Under the pieces are notes generated by a model. It saw only the letters and a program-made list of their open reading frames with translations, did no database searches and was not told the DNA's origin. Shown here in pieces: positions 16,481-24,964 of a stretch of 38,801 bases of DNA. Both the position numbers and the translations under genes were made by a program. Where the stretch lies: NCBI GenBank assembly GCA_014879845.1, contig JACSRI010000141.1, positions 1-38,801 on the forward strand, in the 5' to 3' direction. How positions within the stretch are numbered: the first letter of the stretch is position 1; the number at the start of each line of letters is the position of its first letter. This DNA comes from Opitutaceae bacterium. GTDB taxonomy: Bacteria > Verrucomicrobiota > Verrucomicrobiia > Opitutales > Opitutaceae.

Positions 16481-17671
16481 TCAGGCCCCCTGCGAACGCT
16501 CCAATTCCTCCGCCAGCCAGTGCGCGGCATCGGCCTCGCGCGGGCGCGACAGCAGATTGTGCAACTCGCCCGAAAGGCGATGCGTGCGCGCGATGCGCTC
16601 GGGATTATCGAGGCAGTCGGCCAGTTCGGCAGCGAGCACCGCGGGACTGGCCGCGTCCTGGATGAACTCCGGATACATCGGCTCCTCGAGCAGGATGTTG
16701 GCGATGCCGAGATACGGGATCGTCACCAGCCAGCGCCCCATGCGGTAGGTCAGCGGATTCGCGCGGTAGGCGATCGCGCCCGGGATGCCGGCAAGCGCAC
16801 ATACCAGCGACATCGTGCCCGAACTCGTGAGCACGGCCGAGGCCGCGACGGCCGCGTCGTTGGCCTCGAGCCGGACGCGCTCCCGCACGGCGGGCCGCCG
16901 CGCCAGTTCCGCCTCGAGAATCCGGCGGATCGTGTCGTTGGGGAAAATCATCACCGCGCGCGCCTCAGGTCGTTGACGCAAATGGGCGGCAAAACCCTCG
17001 AGCAGCACAGGCGCGATCCGCCCCACCGCCGCCCGCCGGCTGCCGGCGAGGAGCAGCACCGGGCCATCCTTGGCGTAGACCAGCGGCGAGACAAAACCCT
17101 CGCTCACGAACGGATGCCCGACGAAGGACACCGGCAGCTTCGTGTCCGCATAGCACTTCACCTCGAAGGGAAAGATGACCGCGAGCGAATCGAGCACGCG
17201 CTGCATGGAGAAACGCCGCCGCGCCTTCCACGCCCAGATTTGCGGGCCGATGTAGTAGGACACGCGGATCGGCCCGCCGCCGGCCCGTGAGAGTTTTTCG
17301 TCAGCGAGTCGCTTCGCCATGCGCAGGTTGAAACCAGGATAGTCGACGAAACACACCACGCGCGGCTGGTGCGCGCGGATCCAGCGCAAGGTCTCGGCAA
17401 ACACCTGACGGAAAAAGCCGAAATGCCGCAGCACTTCGACGAGCCCGACGACCGACGAAGCCGTCAGATCGTAGAGGAGCTGCGCGCCGACCGTCTCGAG
17501 GCGCCGGCCACCGAGCGCTGCGACCCGCAGGTGCGGGTGACGCTCGAGCAAAGCCGAGATCATGCGCGCGGCCTGCTCATCGCCCGAGTGCTCGCCGGCG
17601 ACGATGAGGACGTCCACGCGCCCATGCGCGGGTGGCGGAAAAACGACGGGCGGATGACCGGCGGACGACAT
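16481..17671 (-). CDS. lpxB: lipid-A-disaccharide synthase
   Basis: Inner-membrane-associated glycosyltransferase that condenses UDP-2,3-diacylglucosamine with lipid X to make the lipid A disaccharide. The 396 residues match the family from 'VDVLIVAGEHSGDEQAARMI' through 'GLVEVLRHFGFF', 'FVDYPGFNLRMAKRL', 'YYIGPQIWAWKARR', 'DSLAVIFPFE', 'FVGHPF', 'LLLAGSRRAAVGRI' and 'SSGTMSLVCALAGIPGAIAYRANPLTY' to 'PNILLEE' (here 'ANILLEEPMYPEFIQD'). ATG 17671 chosen; GTG 17677 lies two codons upstream and is possible. It shows that the organism makes lipid A, hence a Gram-negative envelope. The gene is alone, not in the common lpxD-fabZ-lpxA-lpxB operon. A Gfo/Idh/MocA oxidoreductase, often linked to lpx genes elsewhere, lies about 5.5 kb away on the same strand. 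Confidence 0.95.
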   Translation of the reverse strand: MSSAGHPPVVFPPPAHGRVDVLIVAGEHSGDEQAARMISALLERHPHLRVAALGGRRLETVGAQLLYDLTASSVVGLVEVLRHFGFFRQVFAETLRWIRAHQPRVVCFVDYPGFNLRMAKRLADEKLSRAGGGPIRVSYYIGPQIWAWKARRRFSMQRVLDSLAVIFPFEVKCYADTKLPVSFVGHPFVSEGFVSPLVYAKDGPVLLLAGSRRAAVGRIAPVLLEGFAAHLRQRPEARAVMIFPNDTIRRILEAELARRPAVRERVRLEANDAAVAASAVLTSSGTMSLVCALAGIPGAIAYRANPLTYRMGRWLVTIPYLGIANILLEEPMYPEFIQDAASPAVLAAELADCLDNPERIARTHRLSGELHNLLSRPREADAAHWLAEELERSQGA

Positions 17672-17818
17672 CGACACGACGTTGAGACGCGCCCGCGGCG
17701 GCGTCCATCCGCGAACGAGAGAGGCTGTCCAGCGTACGGCAGGCCTCCGCGCCTGCCTCGGACCCCACGCAGTTGGTGCGAGAGGTTCGGACAGGCAGGG
17801 CCCCCTGCCCCCCGGGCC

Positions 17819-19702
17819 TCACGGACCGACGACGTAGAGTTCGACGAGGGAGACACCCGTGGTGCCGTCCTTCCCCGCCACCTGCACGGTGTAGGCACCG
17901 GGATTGAGCGCGATCAGGCACGCCGCGTCCTTCTGGCCGTCGCCGAGGCGGAAGGCGAACGTCGCCTGGCGCGCGGCCTCGAGCGCCGCCTGATTCGGCG
18001 CCTGCTGCCAGTCGTCGTTCGACGCGATCGCCGTCGCACCGCGGAAAACCGTCATGACGGGATCGGCGAGTACACCCGCCACGTTGAACGGTGCGTTGCC
18101 GAGCGTCGGGCCGACCGCGCGCACGAGGAGCGTGAGCGCGACATCGCCATCGATGACAAACCCCGGGATCAGCACCTCCGAACCGGTGCCGACGCGGGCC
18201 CGCGCCGAGATGTTGACCAGGCGCGAGGTCGAGCTCGGCGGATCGAGATCGTAGAGCTCGACCAGGGCGACGCCGGTGGTATTGCCCACGCCGGATGTGA
18301 CCACCGTGTAGAGCTGAGGAGCGAGCGATACCACCATCGCGGCATCCTTCGTCGAGCTGCCGAGCGAGAACGCGAAAACCGACGTGGAGGCGGAAGCGAG
18401 CGCCGCCTGATCGGCGAACTGTCCCCAGTCATCGTTGGCCAGGACCAGACTCGAGCCGGCCATCAGGCTCATCGTCGGGTCGGGCAGCACGCCCGCCACG
18501 CTGAACGGCGACTGCCCCAGGCGCGGGCCGACCGCGCGCACGAGCAGGCTCTTGGTCCCGGTGCCGCTGATGACGAAGCCCGGGATCAGCACCTCGTCGC
18601 CCACGCCGACGCGCGCGCGGGTGGAGAGATTGGCGACCCGCGCGCTGCCGGTGGCCACCACGGCGAGCGCCGCGGCGTTGCTCGTGACGGAACCTCCGGG
18701 GTTGGCCAGCGCCACCGTGTAGGATCCCGCGTCACCGGGCTGGACATTGTTCAGGAACAACGTCGCCTGCGTCGCCCCCGCGATGTCGGCGCCGTCCTTG
18801 CGCCATTGGTAGGTCACGGCCGTCCCCGAGGCCTGGACCGAGAAGAACGCGCCGCTGCCCTGCCTCGAGGTCATGGCCGTCGGCTGGCTGTCGATCGAGG
18901 GCGATGGCGGCGGCGTGACGGTGAGCGTGGCGGAGCTGCTGGTGGCGGAGCCGACGGAGTTGGTTGCGACGCAGTCGTAGGTGCCGGCGTCGCCCAGCAC
19001 GACCGCGCCGAGCGCGAGCGTCGCCGTCGTGGCCCCGGTGATCGGCGTGCCGTCCTTGCGCCACTGCAGCGTGGGCGCCGGCGTGCCGGAGACGGCGACG
19101 GTGAACGACGCGCCGGCCCCGTAGTTGGCCGTCACTGACGCTGGTTGCTGGGTGAAGGACGGAGCGGACTCGACCGCCTCAATCACGATCGTGATCGGGA
19201 ACCGCTCGGTCGATCCGTGCGTCCCGCCGCTGCGGCTGGGTCCGTCGAAGGCCTGGAGGTCGAAGGTGTAGGATCCTGCCGTTGTCGGCGTACCTTGGAT
19301 ACTGCCTGAACTCGCATTGAGCGTGAGGTTTCCCGCCGCTCCGGTGGCGCCGGGCACCGTGAGCCCGGGAGGAAGGATGCCAATGATCGCATAGGACTCC
19401 GGCGTGGCGCTGGGCGCGCCACTCAACGCGAAGACCATGGTGAACGACGTGCCGACCTGCCCGGTGGCCGGACTGGCGGGATTGGTCGCGATCGTGGTGG
19501 CGCCGGTCAGTGCGTTCACCACGCCCGTCGCGAGTGCGACCGGCACGAGGGCCCGCAGCATCTCACCGAGACGGCAGCCAACGGCAAATTCCGACGACGC
19601 GAGGACGCGCAGCATGGGCGTACGCTGCAGCAGCAACACGAGGAGCGAGGAAACCCAGGCCATGCGGGCACCGTGCAGGCGCAGGAGAAGGAACTGATTC
19701 AT
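17819..19702 (-). CDS. secreted Ig-domain protein with duplicated C-terminal module
   Basis: A 627-residue exported protein. ATG 19702 gives an N-terminus of about 30 residues with a hydrophobic stretch 'MAWVSSLLVLLLQ', then a second hydrophobic patch near 48-62; the cut site is uncertain. A putative-Ig (He_PIG-like) domain 'SYAIIGILPPGLTVPG...GTPTTAGSYTFDLQAFD' occupies about 66-170, followed by two I-set-like Ig domains with 'TLQWRKDGTPITGATTATLALGAVVLGDAGTYDCVATNSVGS' and 'TYQWRKDGADIAGATQATLFLNNVQPGDAGSYTVALAN' (about 180-350). Two copies of the 135-residue terminal module (about 355-490 and 493-627) end the protein; they match the C-terminus of the protein at 5551-10116. No enzyme motif is seen. 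Start region reads CCACCATG, with no Shine-Dalgarno. Neighbours give no hint of function. Confidence 0.85.
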   Translation of the reverse strand: MNQFLLLRLHGARMAWVSSLLVLLLQRTPMLRVLASSEFAVGCRLGEMLRALVPVALATGVVNALTGATTIATNPASPATGQVGTSFTMVFALSGAPSATPESYAIIGILPPGLTVPGATGAAGNLTLNASSGSIQGTPTTAGSYTFDLQAFDGPSRSGGTHGSTERFPITIVIEAVESAPSFTQQPASVTANYGAGASFTVAVSGTPAPTLQWRKDGTPITGATTATLALGAVVLGDAGTYDCVATNSVGSATSSSATLTVTPPPSPSIDSQPTAMTSRQGSGAFFSVQASGTAVTYQWRKDGADIAGATQATLFLNNVQPGDAGSYTVALANPGGSVTSNAAALAVVATGSARVANLSTRARVGVGDEVLIPGFVISGTGTKSLLVRAVGPRLGQSPFSVAGVLPDPTMSLMAGSSLVLANDDWGQFADQAALASASTSVFAFSLGSSTKDAAMVVSLAPQLYTVVTSGVGNTTGVALVELYDLDPPSSTSRLVNISARARVGTGSEVLIPGFVIDGDVALTLLVRAVGPTLGNAPFNVAGVLADPVMTVFRGATAIASNDDWQQAPNQAALEAARQATFAFRLGDGQKDAACLIALNPGAYTVQVAGKDGTTGVSLVELYVVGP

Positions 19703-20049
19703 GGTGGATCGAGATCGAGGTGGGACCCGGAGGCGCGCGCCGCCGATGGATCGGGGGAACGACACGCGCCACAGAGCGGAGTCACGGATTCTGAGCGGGA
19801 AGGCTTGAGGCTATTCCCGCGATCGCGGCGATTTGACCGATTCCTAGCCGGTGGCATGACCCACCGGCCGCGGCGCGCGGCCTATGGCGTGTTTTCAAAC
19901 CTCAGTTCGCAAATGAAAGGCGGTGCTCCTGCGCCGCCCTGAATGCGCACCGCTGAGCGTGTGCCGTTCGACGTCCGCGGCCGGGCAGGAGCCCGGCAGT
20001 CCATTCCTAACAAGACGCTCGTGGCGGATGTAGGGTTTGAAAACACGCC
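19703..20049. other. 347-bp region with a 16-bp inverted repeat bounding a structured segment
   Basis: Between the Ig-protein start and the DUF4266 stop. It contains the promoter region of the Ig gene on its left and the inverted-repeat element listed separately on its right. No gene was recognised; short frames crossing it are Arg-rich and look like shadows. Confidence 0.5.
19886..20049. repeat. 164-bp segment bounded by perfect 16-bp inverted repeats
   Basis: GGCGTGTTTTCAAACC (19886-19901) and its exact reverse complement GGTTTGAAAACACGCC (20034-20049) enclose 132 bases. Inside are two further hairpins, GGCGGTGC/GCGCCGCC (19919-19938) and CCGGGC-AGGA-GCCCGG (19981-19996). The octamer CCTCAGTT follows each arm, in the same orientation (19900-19907 and 20048-20055). 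The right arm ends exactly on the DUF4266 stop. It could be a small non-autonomous mobile element or a terminator-type structure. Confidence 0.6.
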
Positions 20050-20280
20050 TCAGTTGCACCCACACCCGCCGCCACCGACCCCGCGACCGCCGCTCGAGCC
20101 CTCGCGCGAGAAGTAGATGTGCTCGCTCATCGCCGCGTGCAACGGATCGCGGTCGGGGCGCATGGTGTAATCCGCGAGGTTGGCGCGCTCCCAGGGCTGC
20201 ACGGAGGTGCATCCGGAGGAAACGACGAGCAGGCCAACGGCAACCAGGGCAGCGAGGATGAGACGAATCCGGATCTTCAT
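20050..20280 (-). CDS. DUF4266 small lipoprotein
   Basis: A 76-residue lipoprotein. The signal 'MKIRIRLILAALVAVGLLVVSSGC' ends in a lipobox with acylated Cys24; the mature part is only about 53 residues, with the family core 'QPWERANLADYTMRPDRDPLHAAMSEHIYFSREGSSGGRGVGGGGCGCN'. The end is Gly-rich and carries two closely spaced Cys (CGC) one residue before the C-terminus. The family is uncharacterised as far as I know. It is the last gene of the operon with TlpA, ApbE and DUF3570; ATG overlaps the TlpA stop (ATGA, 20277-20280) and has a good GGAGG seven bases upstream. Presence of TlpA suggests the CGC cysteines change redox state, which is an inference. Confidence 0.9.
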   Translation of the reverse strand: MKIRIRLILAALVAVGLLVVSSGCTSVQPWERANLADYTMRPDRDPLHAAMSEHIYFSREGSSGGRGVGGGGCGCN

Positions 20281-20819
20281 GGTGTTTCCTCCAGCAGGGC
20301 CGCGATCTCGCCACGCAGGCGGTCGCGCGTGGCGTCCCCCTCGAATCCCGCGTGCACGAACCGCACGACGCCCCGGCCATCGAGGACAAAGGTGGTCGGC
20401 ATGGTGGGCACGTCGACACGCTGCACGAGCTTCATGCCCGCATCTCGGACGACGGAAAACGACACGGGATGCTTCTTCAGGAAGGCCTCCATGGCGCCGC
20501 GGTTCTGGTCGACACTGACGGCGACCACCCGCACGCCCCGCGGTCCGAACTCCGCCTGCACTGCGTCGAGCACGGGAAACGCAGCCCGACAGGGCGGACA
20601 CCACGAGGCCCAGAAATCGACGACCACCACCCGCGCTCCGGAAGTGTCGGGCCACGTGCCCTCGAGGCCGTGCTCGTCGGGAGCCGGAAAACCCTGGCCG
20701 ACCGCAAGCGGCTCGGCGCGGCTCGAGGCGATGGCGGCCACGATGGTCACGATCGCGAGGATATGCCGTCCGCAGGCGCGTGGCGCCCGCAGGCCGCGCG
20801 GAAGTGCGTCAGTACACAT
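20277..20819 (-). CDS. TlpA-type thioredoxin-like protein
   Basis: A 180-residue exported thiol oxidoreductase (from ATG 20819). The N-terminal hydrophobic segment 'HILAIVTIVAAIASSRA' fits a signal peptide with a long Arg-rich n-region. The thioredoxin fold shows 'VVVVDFWASWCPPCRAAFPVLDAVQ' with the active-site C74-P-P-C77, then 'VRVVAVSVDQN', the cis-Pro segment 'VPTMPTTFVLDGRGVVRFVHAGF'. TlpA/ResA proteins reduce disulfides outside the cytoplasm and usually serve cytochrome or metal-site assembly; here the operon partners are ApbE, DUF3570 and DUF4266, so a substrate among those is likely (inference). The start at 20849 ('MSDRPGVSAG') would extend it by ten residues and overlap the ApbE gene by 41 rather than 11 bases. 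Confidence 0.93.
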   Translation of the reverse strand: MCTDALPRGLRAPRACGRHILAIVTIVAAIASSRAEPLAVGQGFPAPDEHGLEGTWPDTSGARVVVVDFWASWCPPCRAAFPVLDAVQAEFGPRGVRVVAVSVDQNRGAMEAFLKKHPVSFSVVRDAGMKLVQRVDVPTMPTTFVLDGRGVVRFVHAGFEGDATRDRLRGEIAALLEETP

Positions 20820-21801
20820 ACCGGCAGAAACCCCGGGTCTGTCGCTCATCGCGCTCGGTGGCGATGCAGCCCTCGGCCCCGAAATAGTCGTCGATCAGCT
20901 TCAACCCCTCCGCGGGCCCGAGGACGAACGCCGTGGTCGAAAGCAGTCCCGCCTCGAGGCAGCTGTTGGCCACGACCGTGACCGAGCGGCACTCGTTGGA
21001 CACCGGGTATCCGTTCCGTGGATCGATGATATGGCCGAAGCGCCGTCCGCCCACCTCGAAGCACCGGATGTAGTCACCCGAGGTCGCGATCCCGGCATCG
21101 CTCACCGCGAGGCGCGCGCGCACCGTGCCGGGCGAGCGCGAATCCTCCACGCCGACCGCCCAGCAGGGCGCGCCCGGCGGCGCACCGATCACGCGCACAT
21201 CGTGGCCGAAATCGACCAGGACATTGGCCACGCCGTGCGCACGTGCGATGTCGAGCACGCGGTCGACGGCGTACTCCTTGCCGAATCCGCCGAGATCGAG
21301 CCCCATGCCCGCTTCCGGAAGGTAGATGCGCCCGGGCTCGCGCCGCACGCGCGACCATCCCGTCCTGCCCAGCGCGTGGGTGACCTCGTCGACCGAGGGC
21401 ACGCGCGGAGTGGGAGCACGGTAGTTCCACAGACGGAGCAGGGGCAGGATCGTCGGATCGATGATCCCGCGCGTGAGCACGTGGATCTGATCGGCGAGCG
21501 CGAAGATGCGCTCGGCCTCGTTGTCGACCGCGACCCAATCGCGTCCGGCCGCAGCATTGATCCGCCCGATGAGCGAGTCGGGCCGGAAGCGCGTGTATTT
21601 CGCCTCGAACGCGTGGACCCAGGTGACCGCCTCGCGGACGAAGGCCTGGCCAGCACCGCGGTCAGCCGCGGCGTACTGGATCTCGCACTGCGTACCCAGG
21701 GCCTGGAAACGCACACGGTCGGGCAGCCGCGTTCCGGTCGCGCCGGTATCGCCTGCGGCCGACGGGCCGTCGCGACCTTGATGGGAGTTCTCTAGAACCA
21801 T
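20809..21801 (-). CDS. apbE: ApbE-family FAD:protein FMN transferase, divergent
   Basis: A 330-residue ApbE homologue. ApbE enzymes cleave FAD and attach FMN to Thr of a 'DxxSGAT' motif. Family landmarks: 'FEAKYTRFRPDSLIGRIN' (65-82), 'GLDLGGFGKEYAVDRV' (167-182), 'SDAGIATSGDY' (234-244), 'HIIDPRNGYPV' (257-267) and 'SCLEAGLLSTTAFVLGPAEG' (280-299). Two oddities. At G285 the family normally has Asp of 'ADALATAL', a magnesium ligand; the Thr four residues on (T289) is kept. No signal peptide or lipobox is visible, though most ApbE act in the periplasm. The start (ATG 21801) overlaps the DUF3570 stop by ten bases and leaves no room for a clear signal peptide upstream. Its probable substrate is the preceding barrel, which carries the acceptor motif. 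Confidence 0.88.
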   Translation of the reverse strand: MVLENSHQGRDGPSAAGDTGATGTRLPDRVRFQALGTQCEIQYAAADRGAGQAFVREAVTWVHAFEAKYTRFRPDSLIGRINAAAGRDWVAVDNEAERIFALADQIHVLTRGIIDPTILPLLRLWNYRAPTPRVPSVDEVTHALGRTGWSRVRREPGRIYLPEAGMGLDLGGFGKEYAVDRVLDIARAHGVANVLVDFGHDVRVIGAPPGAPCWAVGVEDSRSPGTVRARLAVSDAGIATSGDYIRCFEVGGRRFGHIIDPRNGYPVSNECRSVTVVANSCLEAGLLSTTAFVLGPAEGLKLIDDYFGAEGCIATERDERQTRGFCRYVY

Positions 21802-22988
21802 AAAGAGATGCCGCCGGTGACGATGTCGGCGGTGGCGTAGGCGCTGGCGGGGGTCACGCCGTCGCGGCCCCGCATGTCGTAGCGCTCAACGGCGACGTCG
21901 GCCGACCAGCGATCGTCGTGCCGGTAGGTGAGTTTGAGGCCGAGCGTGGTGGCCTCAAACTGGGAGAGCCGGTAGTCCGACGAGTAGTGCGGCGCCGAGC
22001 CATCGGGTTCCGGCGCGGGCACGATCGCGGACTGGTCGAGATCGTAGTAGTAGAAATCCGCCTGTCCCTGGCGGTAGTAGCGCAGGTAGGGGCTGAGCAC
22101 CCAGCGTTCGCCGACTTTCTGCAGCCACGCCATCTCGAGGGTGTCGCTGTCGATGCCGTGGGAGTCGCTGTAGAAGCGCACCGATGCCTCGAGGCTCGCG
22201 TGCGCAGGCTCAAAGTGGCGCGCGACCTGAGCGAACACGATCGTCTTGTCGCGCGAGTCCGGCCGGTTCTCGGCAAAAGTCAGCGGCAGCGGAAAACCCG
22301 GCAGGATCTCGACCGTCTTCTGCACGAGCTTGTAGGGATCGGAGAGGTACCCGCTCGAGTTGCCGAGGGTGAGGTTGACCGTGAGAACGGTGTTCCTGTC
22401 GATCAGCTGCACCAGCCCGGCCATGACATCGCGCGAGTCCTTGTTGCGCCCCTCGCTGAAAAACACCGGGTGGATGCGATCGTCCGTGTAGGCAAAACCG
22501 AGCTGCAGCTGCGTGTTCTTCTCATTGAAGTCGCACAGCCAGGTCAGCGCGTAGCCGCTCGAGGTGTAGTCGTCCTCGGTGCTGTAGGCGTACTGGAGAT
22601 TCACGGTCTGCATGCCGAACGTATGCGCGAGGTCGACGACGACTGCACTGCGCTCATCCTCCATCACCGCGAGCGGCACCTCGTCCGAGCCGTCTGGGGC
22701 GGGCGCGCCGGTCGGCGTGGCGCCGCTGATCGTGTCGATCACGCCGCGCACCTTGAGCGCGGTCGCAGTGCCGAGGTCGAGCGTGGCGCGGGCGTTGTGG
22801 TTGCGCACGCGGATACGGTCGTCGGCCTCCTGGTAATCCTGGTATTTGTATGCGAGCGAGTTCTCCGCGCGCAGAAGGCGGGGCAGCGTCGCGGCGAGGG
22901 CCAGGCAGAACGCGAGAATGCGGGCGGCCGCCGGGGCCGATCGGCAGGAAGACGGTTCGAACTGGGGGGATGCAGGCGTTGGGAACAT
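21792..22988 (-). CDS. DUF3570 outer-membrane barrel-like protein with a flavinylation motif
   Basis: A 398-residue protein that opens the four-gene operon. ATG 22988 gives a signal peptide with hydrophobic core 'ILAFCLALAATLPRLL' (cut near A41-E42). The rest is alternating polar/apolar strands rich in Tyr, Trp and acidic residues ending '...GISLWF', a terminal Phe as expected for BAM-assembled barrels. Residues 85-93 read DTISGATPT, a match to the ApbE target consensus Dxx(S/T)GA(T/S), so T91 is a candidate FMN site. It lies in a probable loop after the first strand pair, followed by a Pro/Gly/Asp-rich stretch. The DUF3570/ApbE/TlpA/DUF4266 set is a recurring neighbourhood in Gram-negatives (my recollection, not checked); its function is unknown to me. 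The gene has no Shine-Dalgarno. Confidence 0.88.
   Translation of the reverse strand: MFPTPASPQFEPSSCRSAPAAARILAFCLALAATLPRLLRAENSLAYKYQDYQEADDRIRVRNHNARATLDLGTATALKVRGVIDTISGATPTGAPAPDGSDEVPLAVMEDERSAVVVDLAHTFGMQTVNLQYAYSTEDDYTSSGYALTWLCDFNEKNTQLQLGFAYTDDRIHPVFFSEGRNKDSRDVMAGLVQLIDRNTVLTVNLTLGNSSGYLSDPYKLVQKTVEILPGFPLPLTFAENRPDSRDKTIVFAQVARHFEPAHASLEASVRFYSDSHGIDSDTLEMAWLQKVGERWVLSPYLRYYRQGQADFYYYDLDQSAIVPAPEPDGSAPHYSSDYRLSQFEATTLGLKLTYRHDDRWSADVAVERYDMRGRDGVTPASAYATADIVTGGISLWF
22710..22736 (-). other. candidate FMN-attachment motif DTISGATPT in the DUF3570 protein
   Basis: Nine codons encode D-T-I-S-G-A-T-P-T. ApbE-modified proteins such as NqrB, NqrC and RnfG carry Dxx(S/T)GA(T/S), with FMN on the final Thr or Ser. 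Here the motif is complete, and the ApbE-like gene begins ten bases before this gene ends. Confidence 0.65.
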
Positions 22989-23061
22989 GCGACGGGAGGA
23001 AGGGCGCAGACGTGCCCCGACCCGGAGAATCCGAACGAGGCGCACGATGAGAGCGCGTTCC

Positions 23062-23082
23062 CCCGCGGGCAATTCCCGCGGG
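23062..23082. terminator. hairpin between the Gfo-type gene and the DUF3570 operon
   Basis: CCCGCGGG-CAATT-CCCGCGGG: an 8-bp stem and five-base loop. The two genes around it are on the minus strand, so it could stop transcription from the upstream oxidoreductase and separate it from the DUF3570 operon 74 bases further on. No clear T-run on the minus strand. Confidence 0.4.
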
Positions 23083-23204
23083 TTCGGCGCGGGGGTTTTG
23101 ATCCCGTTGTTACAGGGTGTGTTCCCCAGATGAGTGCGATACCCCAGAGGGTGGTCGCCGGCGTGCCGCCGGTGGCGCCCGGTCCGGCGCAGGTGCCGTC
23201 AGCC

Positions 23205-24194
23205 TCAGGCGTGACGAACGGCGGCGGCGCGGATCTGGTTCGTGATGGCCAGGGCGACCTCGAGGGCGGACTTGCCGAGGCCGGCGCCGACCTTGGGCTC
23301 GCGGGCGTGCCGGACGGCCTCGACGAACGAGGCCAGTTCAAGGCGCAGCGGCTCGCCCTTCTCCAGTGGTATCCGCTCGACGGGCACGGCGGCGAGGTCG
23401 CCGGGCTTGGCCGCGCCGGTCATGAGTTTCTGCGCGTACTCGAGCATGCCGGACTTGCGCACGATGTGGCCGGCCTGGTTCATGAAATCGAAGGAGAAAT
23501 ATCCGGTCGGCTGGAACACCCGGATCTCGCGCAGCTTCTTCAGCGACATGCGGGAGACATTGAGCGTCGCCACGCAGCCGTTCTCGAACTCGATGCGGGC
23601 ATTCGCGATGTCCTCCGTGCGCGAGAGCACGCTCACGCCCACGCTGTCGATGCGCGCGACCGGCGACTTCACGAGCTCGAGCACGATCCCGATGTCGTGG
23701 ATCATCAAGTCGAGGACCACACCCACCTCGGTGCCGCGCGGCTGGAAGGGCGCGAGGCGCTCGGTCATGATGTACTTCGGCGAGACGACCTCCTTCTCGA
23801 GGAAGCCCATGACCGGGTTGAAATGCTCGATGTGCCCGACCTGCACGACCGCATGCGCGGCGCGCGCCGCCTCGAGGATCCGTTCGGCCTCCTCGCGGCT
23901 GGTGCAAAGCGGCTTTTCGATGAGCAGGTGGCAGCCCTTGGCGAGGAGCGGCAGCGCGACCTCGCAGTGGCGGTCGGTCGGCACGGCCACGCTCACGGCG
24001 TCGCATGCCTCACCCAGTTCGTCGAGCGTGGCAAAGCGCCGGCACTGGTAGAGTGCGCAGATCTCGGCCGCGCGGGCGTCGTTGACCTCGTAGATGCCGG
24101 CGAGTTCGGCGCCGGGAATCTCGCGGTAGATCCGCGCGTGGTGTTGCCCGAGGTAGCCGGTGCCGGCGACGCCGCATTGGATGGTCGTGGTCAT
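23205..24194 (-). CDS. Gfo/Idh/MocA family NAD(P)-dependent oxidoreductase
   Basis: A 329-residue sugar-type dehydrogenase. The N-terminal Rossmann fold has 'GVAGTGYLGQHHARIYREIPG' near residues 8-28, then 'AVSVAVPTDRHCEVALPLLAKGCHLLIEKPL' with the catalytic EKP motif, and 'VQVGHIEHFNPVM'. The latter, 'GHIE.FNP', is also typical of UDP-GlcNAc 3-dehydrogenases of the GnnA kind, which act before LpxA in bacteria that make lipid A with amide-linked acyl chains; a GnnB aminotransferase would be needed and none is in the window. Substrate therefore remains open. ATG 24194 gives a normal length; ATG 24215 extends it by seven residues. The start lies 23 bases from the palindromic repeat at 24218-24297. 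Confidence 0.9.
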   Translation of the reverse strand: MTTTIQCGVAGTGYLGQHHARIYREIPGAELAGIYEVNDARAAEICALYQCRRFATLDELGEACDAVSVAVPTDRHCEVALPLLAKGCHLLIEKPLCTSREEAERILEAARAAHAVVQVGHIEHFNPVMGFLEKEVVSPKYIMTERLAPFQPRGTEVGVVLDLMIHDIGIVLELVKSPVARIDSVGVSVLSRTEDIANARIEFENGCVATLNVSRMSLKKLREIRVFQPTGYFSFDFMNQAGHIVRKSGMLEYAQKLMTGAAKPGDLAAVPVERIPLEKGEPLRLELASFVEAVRHAREPKVGAGLGKSALEVALAITNQIRAAAVRHA

Positions 24195-24217
24195 GGAGGA
24201 AATGGTTGAAAGCACAA

Positions 24218-24297
24218 AGGTAGGGCGAGGCCTCCGGCCGAGCCGAGACCGTCGCCCAGTCCATGCACGCGGCTCGGCCGGAGGCCTCGCCCTACCT
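24218..24297. repeat. 80-bp palindromic repeat, copy 1 (28-bp perfect arms)
   Basis: The left arm (24218-24245) begins AGGTAGGGCGAGGCCTCCGG and its exact complement occupies 24270-24297; the loop is 24 bases. A second, slightly degraded copy is at 37259-37331. Each lies between genes, so they look like a dispersed REP-like family rather than a gene-specific structure. Confidence 0.85.
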
Positions 24298-24309
24298 CGG
24301 AAAGCAGAC

Positions 24310-24964
<655 letters not shown>

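Follow-up and report, generated by a model that had tools for sequence, protein, structure and literature searches.

The window considered here is a stretch of 38,801 nucleotides from an Opitutaceae bacterium (GenBank assembly GCA_014879845.1, 5.4 Mb in 277 contigs; contig JACSRI010000141.1, positions 1 to 38,801), whose closest relatives among named records are metagenome-assembled genomes (MAGs) of Opitutae and other Verrucomicrobiota. It contains an operon, DUF3570-ApbE-TlpA-DUF4266, which we take, with a probability of about 0.6 for the reading as a whole, to encode an outer-membrane flavin/thiol redox module in which a cytosolic ApbE attaches flavin mononucleotide (FMN) to residue T91 of the DUF3570 protein before export. 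The initial annotation described four genes on one strand, overlapping successively by 10, 11 and 4 bases, the second encoding an ApbE homologue. That layout stands: all four genes lie on the minus strand, Pfam names them DUF3570, ApbE, AhpC-TSA and DUF4266, and the ApbE match lies above its cut-off. A fifth gene is found downstream of DUF4266. The features are as follows.

21792-22988, minus strand: DUF3570 protein of 398 aa, a predicted outer-membrane barrel (PF12094, E=3.4e-70, 237.4 bits, cut-off 25)
22710-22736, minus strand: DTISGATPT, residues 85-93 of the DUF3570 protein; the predicted FMN acceptor T91 is encoded at 22716-22718
20809-21801, minus strand: ApbE-family FMN transferase of 330 aa, of the E176/G285 type defined below (PF02424, E=4.5e-72, 243.2 bits, cut-off 25.6)
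20277-20819, minus strand: TlpA/ResA-like exported thioredoxin with WASWCPPC (AhpC-TSA, E=4.4e-19, over the Pfam cut-off); an alternative in-frame start lies at 20849
20050-20280, minus strand: DUF4266 lipoprotein of 76 aa with C-terminal GCGCN (PF14086, E=4.1e-24, 85.7 bits, cut-off 27)
19886-20049, no strand: repeat element of 164 bp bounded by perfect 16-nt inverted repeats, in the gap that separates DUF4266 from the fifth gene
17819-19702, minus strand: fifth gene, encoding a 627-aa immunoglobulin (Ig) repeat protein (I-set by Pfam) with the motif VNALTGAT (T69)
19433-19702, minus strand: new N-terminal domain of the fifth protein, its first 90 residues (56 distinct homologous stretches)

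The case for flavinylation begins with the acceptor site. DTISGATPT had been read as a match to the ApbE consensus Dxx(S/T)GA(T/S), for which 0.0045 chance occurrences are expected in a random protein of the same length and composition. For the window protein this is correct; as a rule for the family it is not, because position 88 is S or T in just 46 of 75 aligned DUF3570 proteins (A in 25, V in 4), so that the strict consensus is relaxed there. The acceptor position itself always holds a hydroxyl residue (T91 in 66, S in 9); at position 85 D occurs in 66 proteins and N in 9, and a further glycine, G82, is present in 64, giving the extended pattern G82-x-x-[DN]85-x-x-[SATV]88-G-A-[TS]91. (The 75 are frames of 330 aa or more with a phmmer match; this excludes L082, which ends at a contig edge, the pieces of L087, which has a broken frame, and the loci L102 and L105-L107, which gave no match.) A single site, [DN]-x-[IV]-[STAV]-G-[AST]-[TS]-P, is found in 73 of these 75 distinct proteins. 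In the remaining two (L103, L104) a single loop contains SSAS..SGAS, a form also seen in L105 and L106 outside the set; the loci of this two-site type (L103-L106) also differ in gene order, with DUF4266 first and ApbE last, and their ApbEs have hydrophobic N-termini. At nine loci (L090, L092, L093, L099, L100, L120-L122 and L136), none of which yielded a copy of the fifth gene, the acceptor motif is directly followed by a long Pro-, Ser-, Ala- and Thr-rich insert. No DUF3570 match was found in plasmids or viral contigs, and no DUF4266 match in plasmids, so the sample is confined to one phylum.

It had been expected that the motif would be kept only where DUF3570 lies beside apbE. In 4 of the 75 (L004, L080, L101, L134) apbE is not adjacent and the acceptor site is nevertheless retained. 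The genomes of three of these have apbE elsewhere, and L080 shares its MAG with L066, which has apbE. More generally, DUF3570 is present in 42 of 387 genomes of the phylum and apbE, adjacent or elsewhere, in all 42; since there is no DUF3570 genome without an apbE, the comparison cannot discriminate. The source genome has two apbE genes and no FMN_bind domain, which leaves DUF3570 as the obvious ApbE target. It also has a second DUF3570-TlpA-DUF4266 set (L004; contig C123, 1670-3871; motif DTITGATPT), behind which another fifth-gene copy lies. No apbE adjoins that set, so the ApbE of the window may serve both.

Whether flavinylation of a DUF3570 protein had already been proposed was left undecided in the initial annotation. 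It had been: according to the main text of Meheust et al. (2021; PMC8238504), the DUF3570 protein of Chlorobium luteolum is flavinylated on co-expression with its ApbE, and only the mutation of both of its [ST]GA[ST] sites abolishes the modification. Covalent flavinylation of DUF3570 at such motifs is thus well supported, the direct demonstration being for a two-site homologue, and by analogy the window protein very probably carries a covalent vitamin-B2 cofactor. The co-expression was of signal-truncated proteins: the C. luteolum DUF3570 was made in Escherichia coli without its signal peptide, and the product was mostly in the pellet (PMC8238504), so that the unassembled chain is apparently a competent substrate.

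The DUF3570 protein appears to have a signal peptide at about residues 1-41 (the commonest residue at -2 of the likely site occurs in 46 of 75, and +1 is E in 70) and ends, as had been reported, in Phe, preceded by Trp. The barrel-like character assigned to it is borne out by an AlphaFold2 model built from 71 of the 75 sequences (L076, L133, L103 and L104 out): nearly all-beta, with 18 strands, a mean predicted local distance difference test score (pLDDT) of 95.5 and a predicted template modelling score of 0.89. Outer-membrane barrels top the PDB fold lists of both Foldseek and VIA-align, the best VIA-align match being a BamA model (Z 22.3, root-mean-square deviation 3.2, 274 residues aligned; OmpG, another match, has Z 17.6). 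By sequence, the best PDB match to the DUF3570 alignment has E 0.17. A closed outer-membrane beta-barrel is predicted. Its connections are of 2-4 residues on the side of the chain ends and of 2-36 residues on the side of T91, which is residue 51 of the model and lies near the end of strand 3 (36-52), ahead of a 13-residue loop. The initial annotation would have T91 in a loop and not buried in a strand; the model places it at a strand end, not mid-strand. Since this end is on the side of the long loops, the predicted T91 flavin would lie at the outer rim of the barrel, the outer side being assigned by the usual barrel topology with both chain ends periplasmic.

The ApbE of the window keeps the catalytic histidine (His257 of the Vibrio cholerae enzyme, for which the catalytic role is described in PMC5655446) in the sequence HIIDPR, as do 74 of 75 ApbEs, and the Mg-ligand Thr is kept in 72 of 75. 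The Mg-ligand Asp, D284 in Treponema pallidum (PMC5655446) and D280 in E. coli (PMC4767422), maps by alignment on to residue 285, which is Gly in the window and in 68 of 75. In its place, as it were, a Gly of the metal-site loop has become E176 (Glu in 69 of 75). Over 111 rows, which include some cut copies of one gene, the pair 176/285 is E/G in 80, G/D in 28, E/gap in 2 and G/Q in 1; neither E/D nor G/G occurs. The E176 rows form one clade (82 versus 29, support 0.985). I read this pairing as suggesting a relocated metal-binding acid rather than a dead enzyme.

The second peculiarity of this enzyme is its N-terminus. No signal peptide or lipobox is visible in the window ApbE, on hydropathy and on reading the upstream frame, which offers no alternative N-terminus. 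A hydrophobic N-terminus is found in 69 of 79 DUF3570, 65 of 68 TlpA and 71 of 73 DUF4266 proteins; among ApbEs it is found in 7 of 73, and four of those seven are of the divergent two-site type. Since the ApbEs lack what their operon partners have, flavinylation in the cytosol, before export and with an altered active site, is suggested for the E/G type by these sequences. A cytosolic ApbE without a signal peptide has a precedent in Klebsiella pneumoniae (PMC12052999), where the target, fumarate reductase, is a soluble cytosolic enzyme, in contrast with the exported barrel of the window.

Of the thiol proteins of the operon, TlpA shows W-x-x-[WY]-C-x-x-C in all 67 distinct homologues, and DUF4266 ends in GCGC[NYF] in all 74, with its lipobox Cys24 in 99%. 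The initial annotation had these two proteins complete an electron path across or at the outer membrane. A path through TlpA and the Cys-containing lipoprotein to FMN, in either direction, is the inference that is also made in PMC8238504, and TlpA to CGC tail to FMN, or the reverse, would be its simplest form, the published proposal being here extended to a barrel.

Several points weigh against this module with a cytosolic, active ApbE. The hydrophobic N-termini were scored by a simple hydropathy rule over all possible starts and not by a trained predictor. The second ApbE of the source genome (L110, C102:20891-21631), which has canonical metal residues, also shows no evident signal peptide by eye, so that the E/G clade is not alone in lacking one. 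(This gene adjoins one for a multi-spanning membrane protein.) No DsbD gene is found in the operon or on the window's contig, three DsbD_TM matches lying elsewhere in the genome. Finally, the Mg ligands of the T. pallidum flavin transferase Ftp are reported to be critical for FMN transfer (PMC4767422), and an enzyme with Gly in place of the ligand Asp might therefore be inactive.

Two other accounts of the enzyme have to be set beside that of a cytosolic transferase. In the first, ApbE is exported by a route that leaves no trace in its N-terminus, and the flavin is attached in the periplasm ahead of barrel insertion, as happens in the classical systems. Among ApbE rows outside the E/G type and without a DUF3570 neighbour, taken from the best-scoring loci, 23 of 25 do have a hydrophobic N-terminus, as do all four ApbEs of the two-site type, and many E/G members carry a short Pro-rich N-terminal tail. 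The fact that 67 of 70 E/G ApbEs beside DUF3570 have no hydrophobic stretch while their partners have one, together with the reading of the upstream frame, makes this account unlikely. Still less probable is a loss of transferase activity, with the E/G protein acting as a chaperone or FAD-binding factor (FAD, flavin adenine dinucleotide) and T91 unflavinylated throughout the clade, for although the Mg-ligand Asp is gone, the acceptor, the catalytic His and the Mg-ligand Thr are kept at the frequencies given above and G285 is never without its new acid, E176.

The preferred reading of the operon, a cytosolic ApbE acting on the DUF3570 precursor, gains a further candidate substrate from the fifth gene. 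Of 74 distinct loci, 41 have the start of this gene within 4.5 kb behind DUF4266, 34 of these at a distance of 3-155 bp. The 33 loci without a nearby fifth gene include some where little downstream DNA is available or a copy lies at a greater distance, and those of other classes, which lack it; L199, L207 and L210 have copies further along the contig or on other contigs, with the motif retained. At four loci (L129, L131, L133, L061) one operon is followed by two tandem copies. In the window the 164-bp element lies ahead of the fifth gene, directly behind the DUF4266 stop. The genome has 23 matches to it, 70-100% identical; it is probably an inserted repeat resembling a miniature inverted-repeat transposable element, outside the redox system. 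A search of 17000-24500 against Rfam gave no match.

The N-terminal domain of the fifth protein matches six Pfam families, one member each, at E 0.0016 or worse, and its best NCBIfam match (E 0.0086) is far below the cut-off; no description of the family was found in the open-licence literature, the figures and supplements of PMC8238504 being outside that search. The profile was built from operon-adjacent copies, and no more than 13 candidates were scored in any genome, so that weak or distant copies may be missed; the alignments A2 and A3 hold 51 and 53 of the stretches found. On this basis the domain is present in 26 of the 387 genomes. Twenty-five of the matches are strong, with E of 1e-20 or below, and every one of them falls among the 42 genomes with DUF3570 (hypergeometric probability 1.8e-28, which ignores the relatedness of genomes); the 26th (G242) is marginal (E 6e-4, internal stops) and is not among the 42. 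In the class of the window 25 of 26 DUF3570 genomes have the domain, in other classes none of 16.

The 56 stretches read L-L-Q-R-x-P ... G60-x-x-[HDNQ]63-x-x-[ASTV]66-G67-A68-[TS]69. Among the 55 that reach the motif (one ends before it), G60 and A68 are invariant, G67 occurs in 54, and position 69 is T in 52 and S in 3; position 63 is H in 30, D in 13, N in 10 and Q in 2. DUF3570 and the fifth protein therefore have in common an extended pattern, G-x-x-[HDNQ]-x-x-[ASTV]-G-A-[TS], with equal spacing. What this pattern does in the fifth protein can be argued in two ways.

Signal peptidase I follows a -3/-1 rule, for which A, S, T or V at -3 and A at -1 are suitable. The [ASTV]GA[TS] of the fifth protein meets that description, and in the model it is part of the linker that joins a helix (45-66) to the first beta strand (block-mean pLDDT of residues 31-70: 56-63), as the cleavage site of an extended signal peptide might; the prevalence of H at position 63, where the ApbE motif has D, points the same way. 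On the other hand, the peptidase does not demand G at -2, T or S at +1, G60 or H/D/N/Q at 63, all of them constant or, for G67, nearly so; at the likely DUF3570 signal site, for comparison, the -2 residue is far more variable, though +1 is conserved there. Nor need the loss of Asp disqualify an ApbE motif: its change from D to A has a minor effect, whereas changes of the Gly or Ala lower flavinylation to about half (PMC12052999), effects that fit the residues that the fifth protein has kept. We regard the chances of the cleavage-site interpretation as even.

The other interpretation, in which the same ApbE also loads FMN on to the fifth protein, is put forward more tentatively. It has in its favour the shared pattern, with the same spacing and beside the same enzyme, and a tendency of residue 66 of the fifth protein to be the same as residue 88 of the DUF3570 protein of its operon (22 of 42 pairs, 12.1 expected; an identity excess that ranks 3 of 5218 column pairs). 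The idea of such covariation came from viewing the sequences. Against it, 384 of 2469 comparable column pairs have raw mutual information as high as that of 66/88, so that shared ancestry explains part of the agreement, and the corrected rank is 185 of 25191; with 32 pairs mapped the signal is weaker: 606 of 2095 column pairs reach it, and it ranks 66 of 5084 by identity excess and 834 of 22876 after correction. The H at position 63 in most sequences also speaks against an acceptor.

Clusters of this general kind have been catalogued. The main text of PMC8238504 counts 285 DsbD clusters, 227 with DUF3570 and 221 with DUF4266, and 316 ApbE/DUF3570/thioredoxin/DUF4266 clusters without DsbD, and proposes a hybrid thioredoxin/flavin system of uncertain function; the words barrel and porin do not occur in it. 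It is also the only paper in the open-licence literature searched that names DUF3570 or DUF4266. In the text available of PMC11334425, a later paper, the outer membrane figures once as a site of flavinylation, and DUF3570 is not named. The DsbD-type clusters and the window have in common the four families, an ApbE-flavinylated DUF3570 protein (in the window, a predicted one) and a C-terminal CxC in DUF4266. They differ in that the published DUF3570 type has two acceptor sites and that of the window one, and in that the window operon is without DsbD, has an ApbE with no visible signal peptide and an altered Mg site, and is linked to a fifth gene. A linear D-x-x-[ST]-G-A-[ST] is also accepted by ApbE in NqrC, RnfG and NosR (PMC12052999); those are inner-membrane or periplasmic proteins, in contrast with the barrel acceptor proposed here.

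Porin-cytochrome conduits such as MtrCAB pass electrons through an outer-membrane barrel. Unlike them, the window operon has no haem motif: CxxCH is absent from all five proteins, read by eye, so that the operon provides no multihaem cytochrome partner, and flavin and thiols would take the place of haem.

The course of events that we envisage is the following. The cytosolic ApbE would take FMN from FAD and attach it to T91 while the DUF3570 precursor is still unfolded. Since FAD is synthesised in the cytosol, an ApbE that stays there would need no FAD export. The passage of an FMN-bearing chain through the Sec channel is plausible. The flavinylated precursor would then be exported and inserted as a barrel, with FMN, going by the model and the usual topology, at the outer rim of strand 3. 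A donor of DsbD/CcdA type, encoded elsewhere, would feed TlpA, and TlpA with the CGC tail of DUF4266 would give periplasmic thiol electrons to FMN or take them from it. The fifth-gene Ig-repeat protein would be a partner dedicated to this module, at the surface or in the periplasm, and perhaps another substrate of ApbE. In its most far-reaching form, a haem-free outer-membrane conduit whose cytosolic acid-swapped ApbE loads FMN on to both T91 and T69 before secretion, with TlpA and the CGC tail linking thiols to surface flavins, we hold the scheme to be improbable.

Flavinylation of DUF3570 by its cognate ApbE and the clustering of DUF3570, ApbE, thioredoxin and DUF4266 genes were already known (PMC8238504). 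What is new, going by the open-licence literature searched, is the one-site barrel, the clade of apparently cytosolic, acid-swapped ApbEs, and a linked new protein family with a look-alike motif. The position of the flavin in DUF3570 and the time of its attachment were left open in the main text of PMC8238504. Three points can now be tested directly: pre-export flavinylation of a secreted protein, the relocation of the metal-binding acid in an ApbE, and a partner family whose motif resembles the acceptor site. If the scheme is true, the outer membrane would present FMN at its outer rim with no cytochrome involved.

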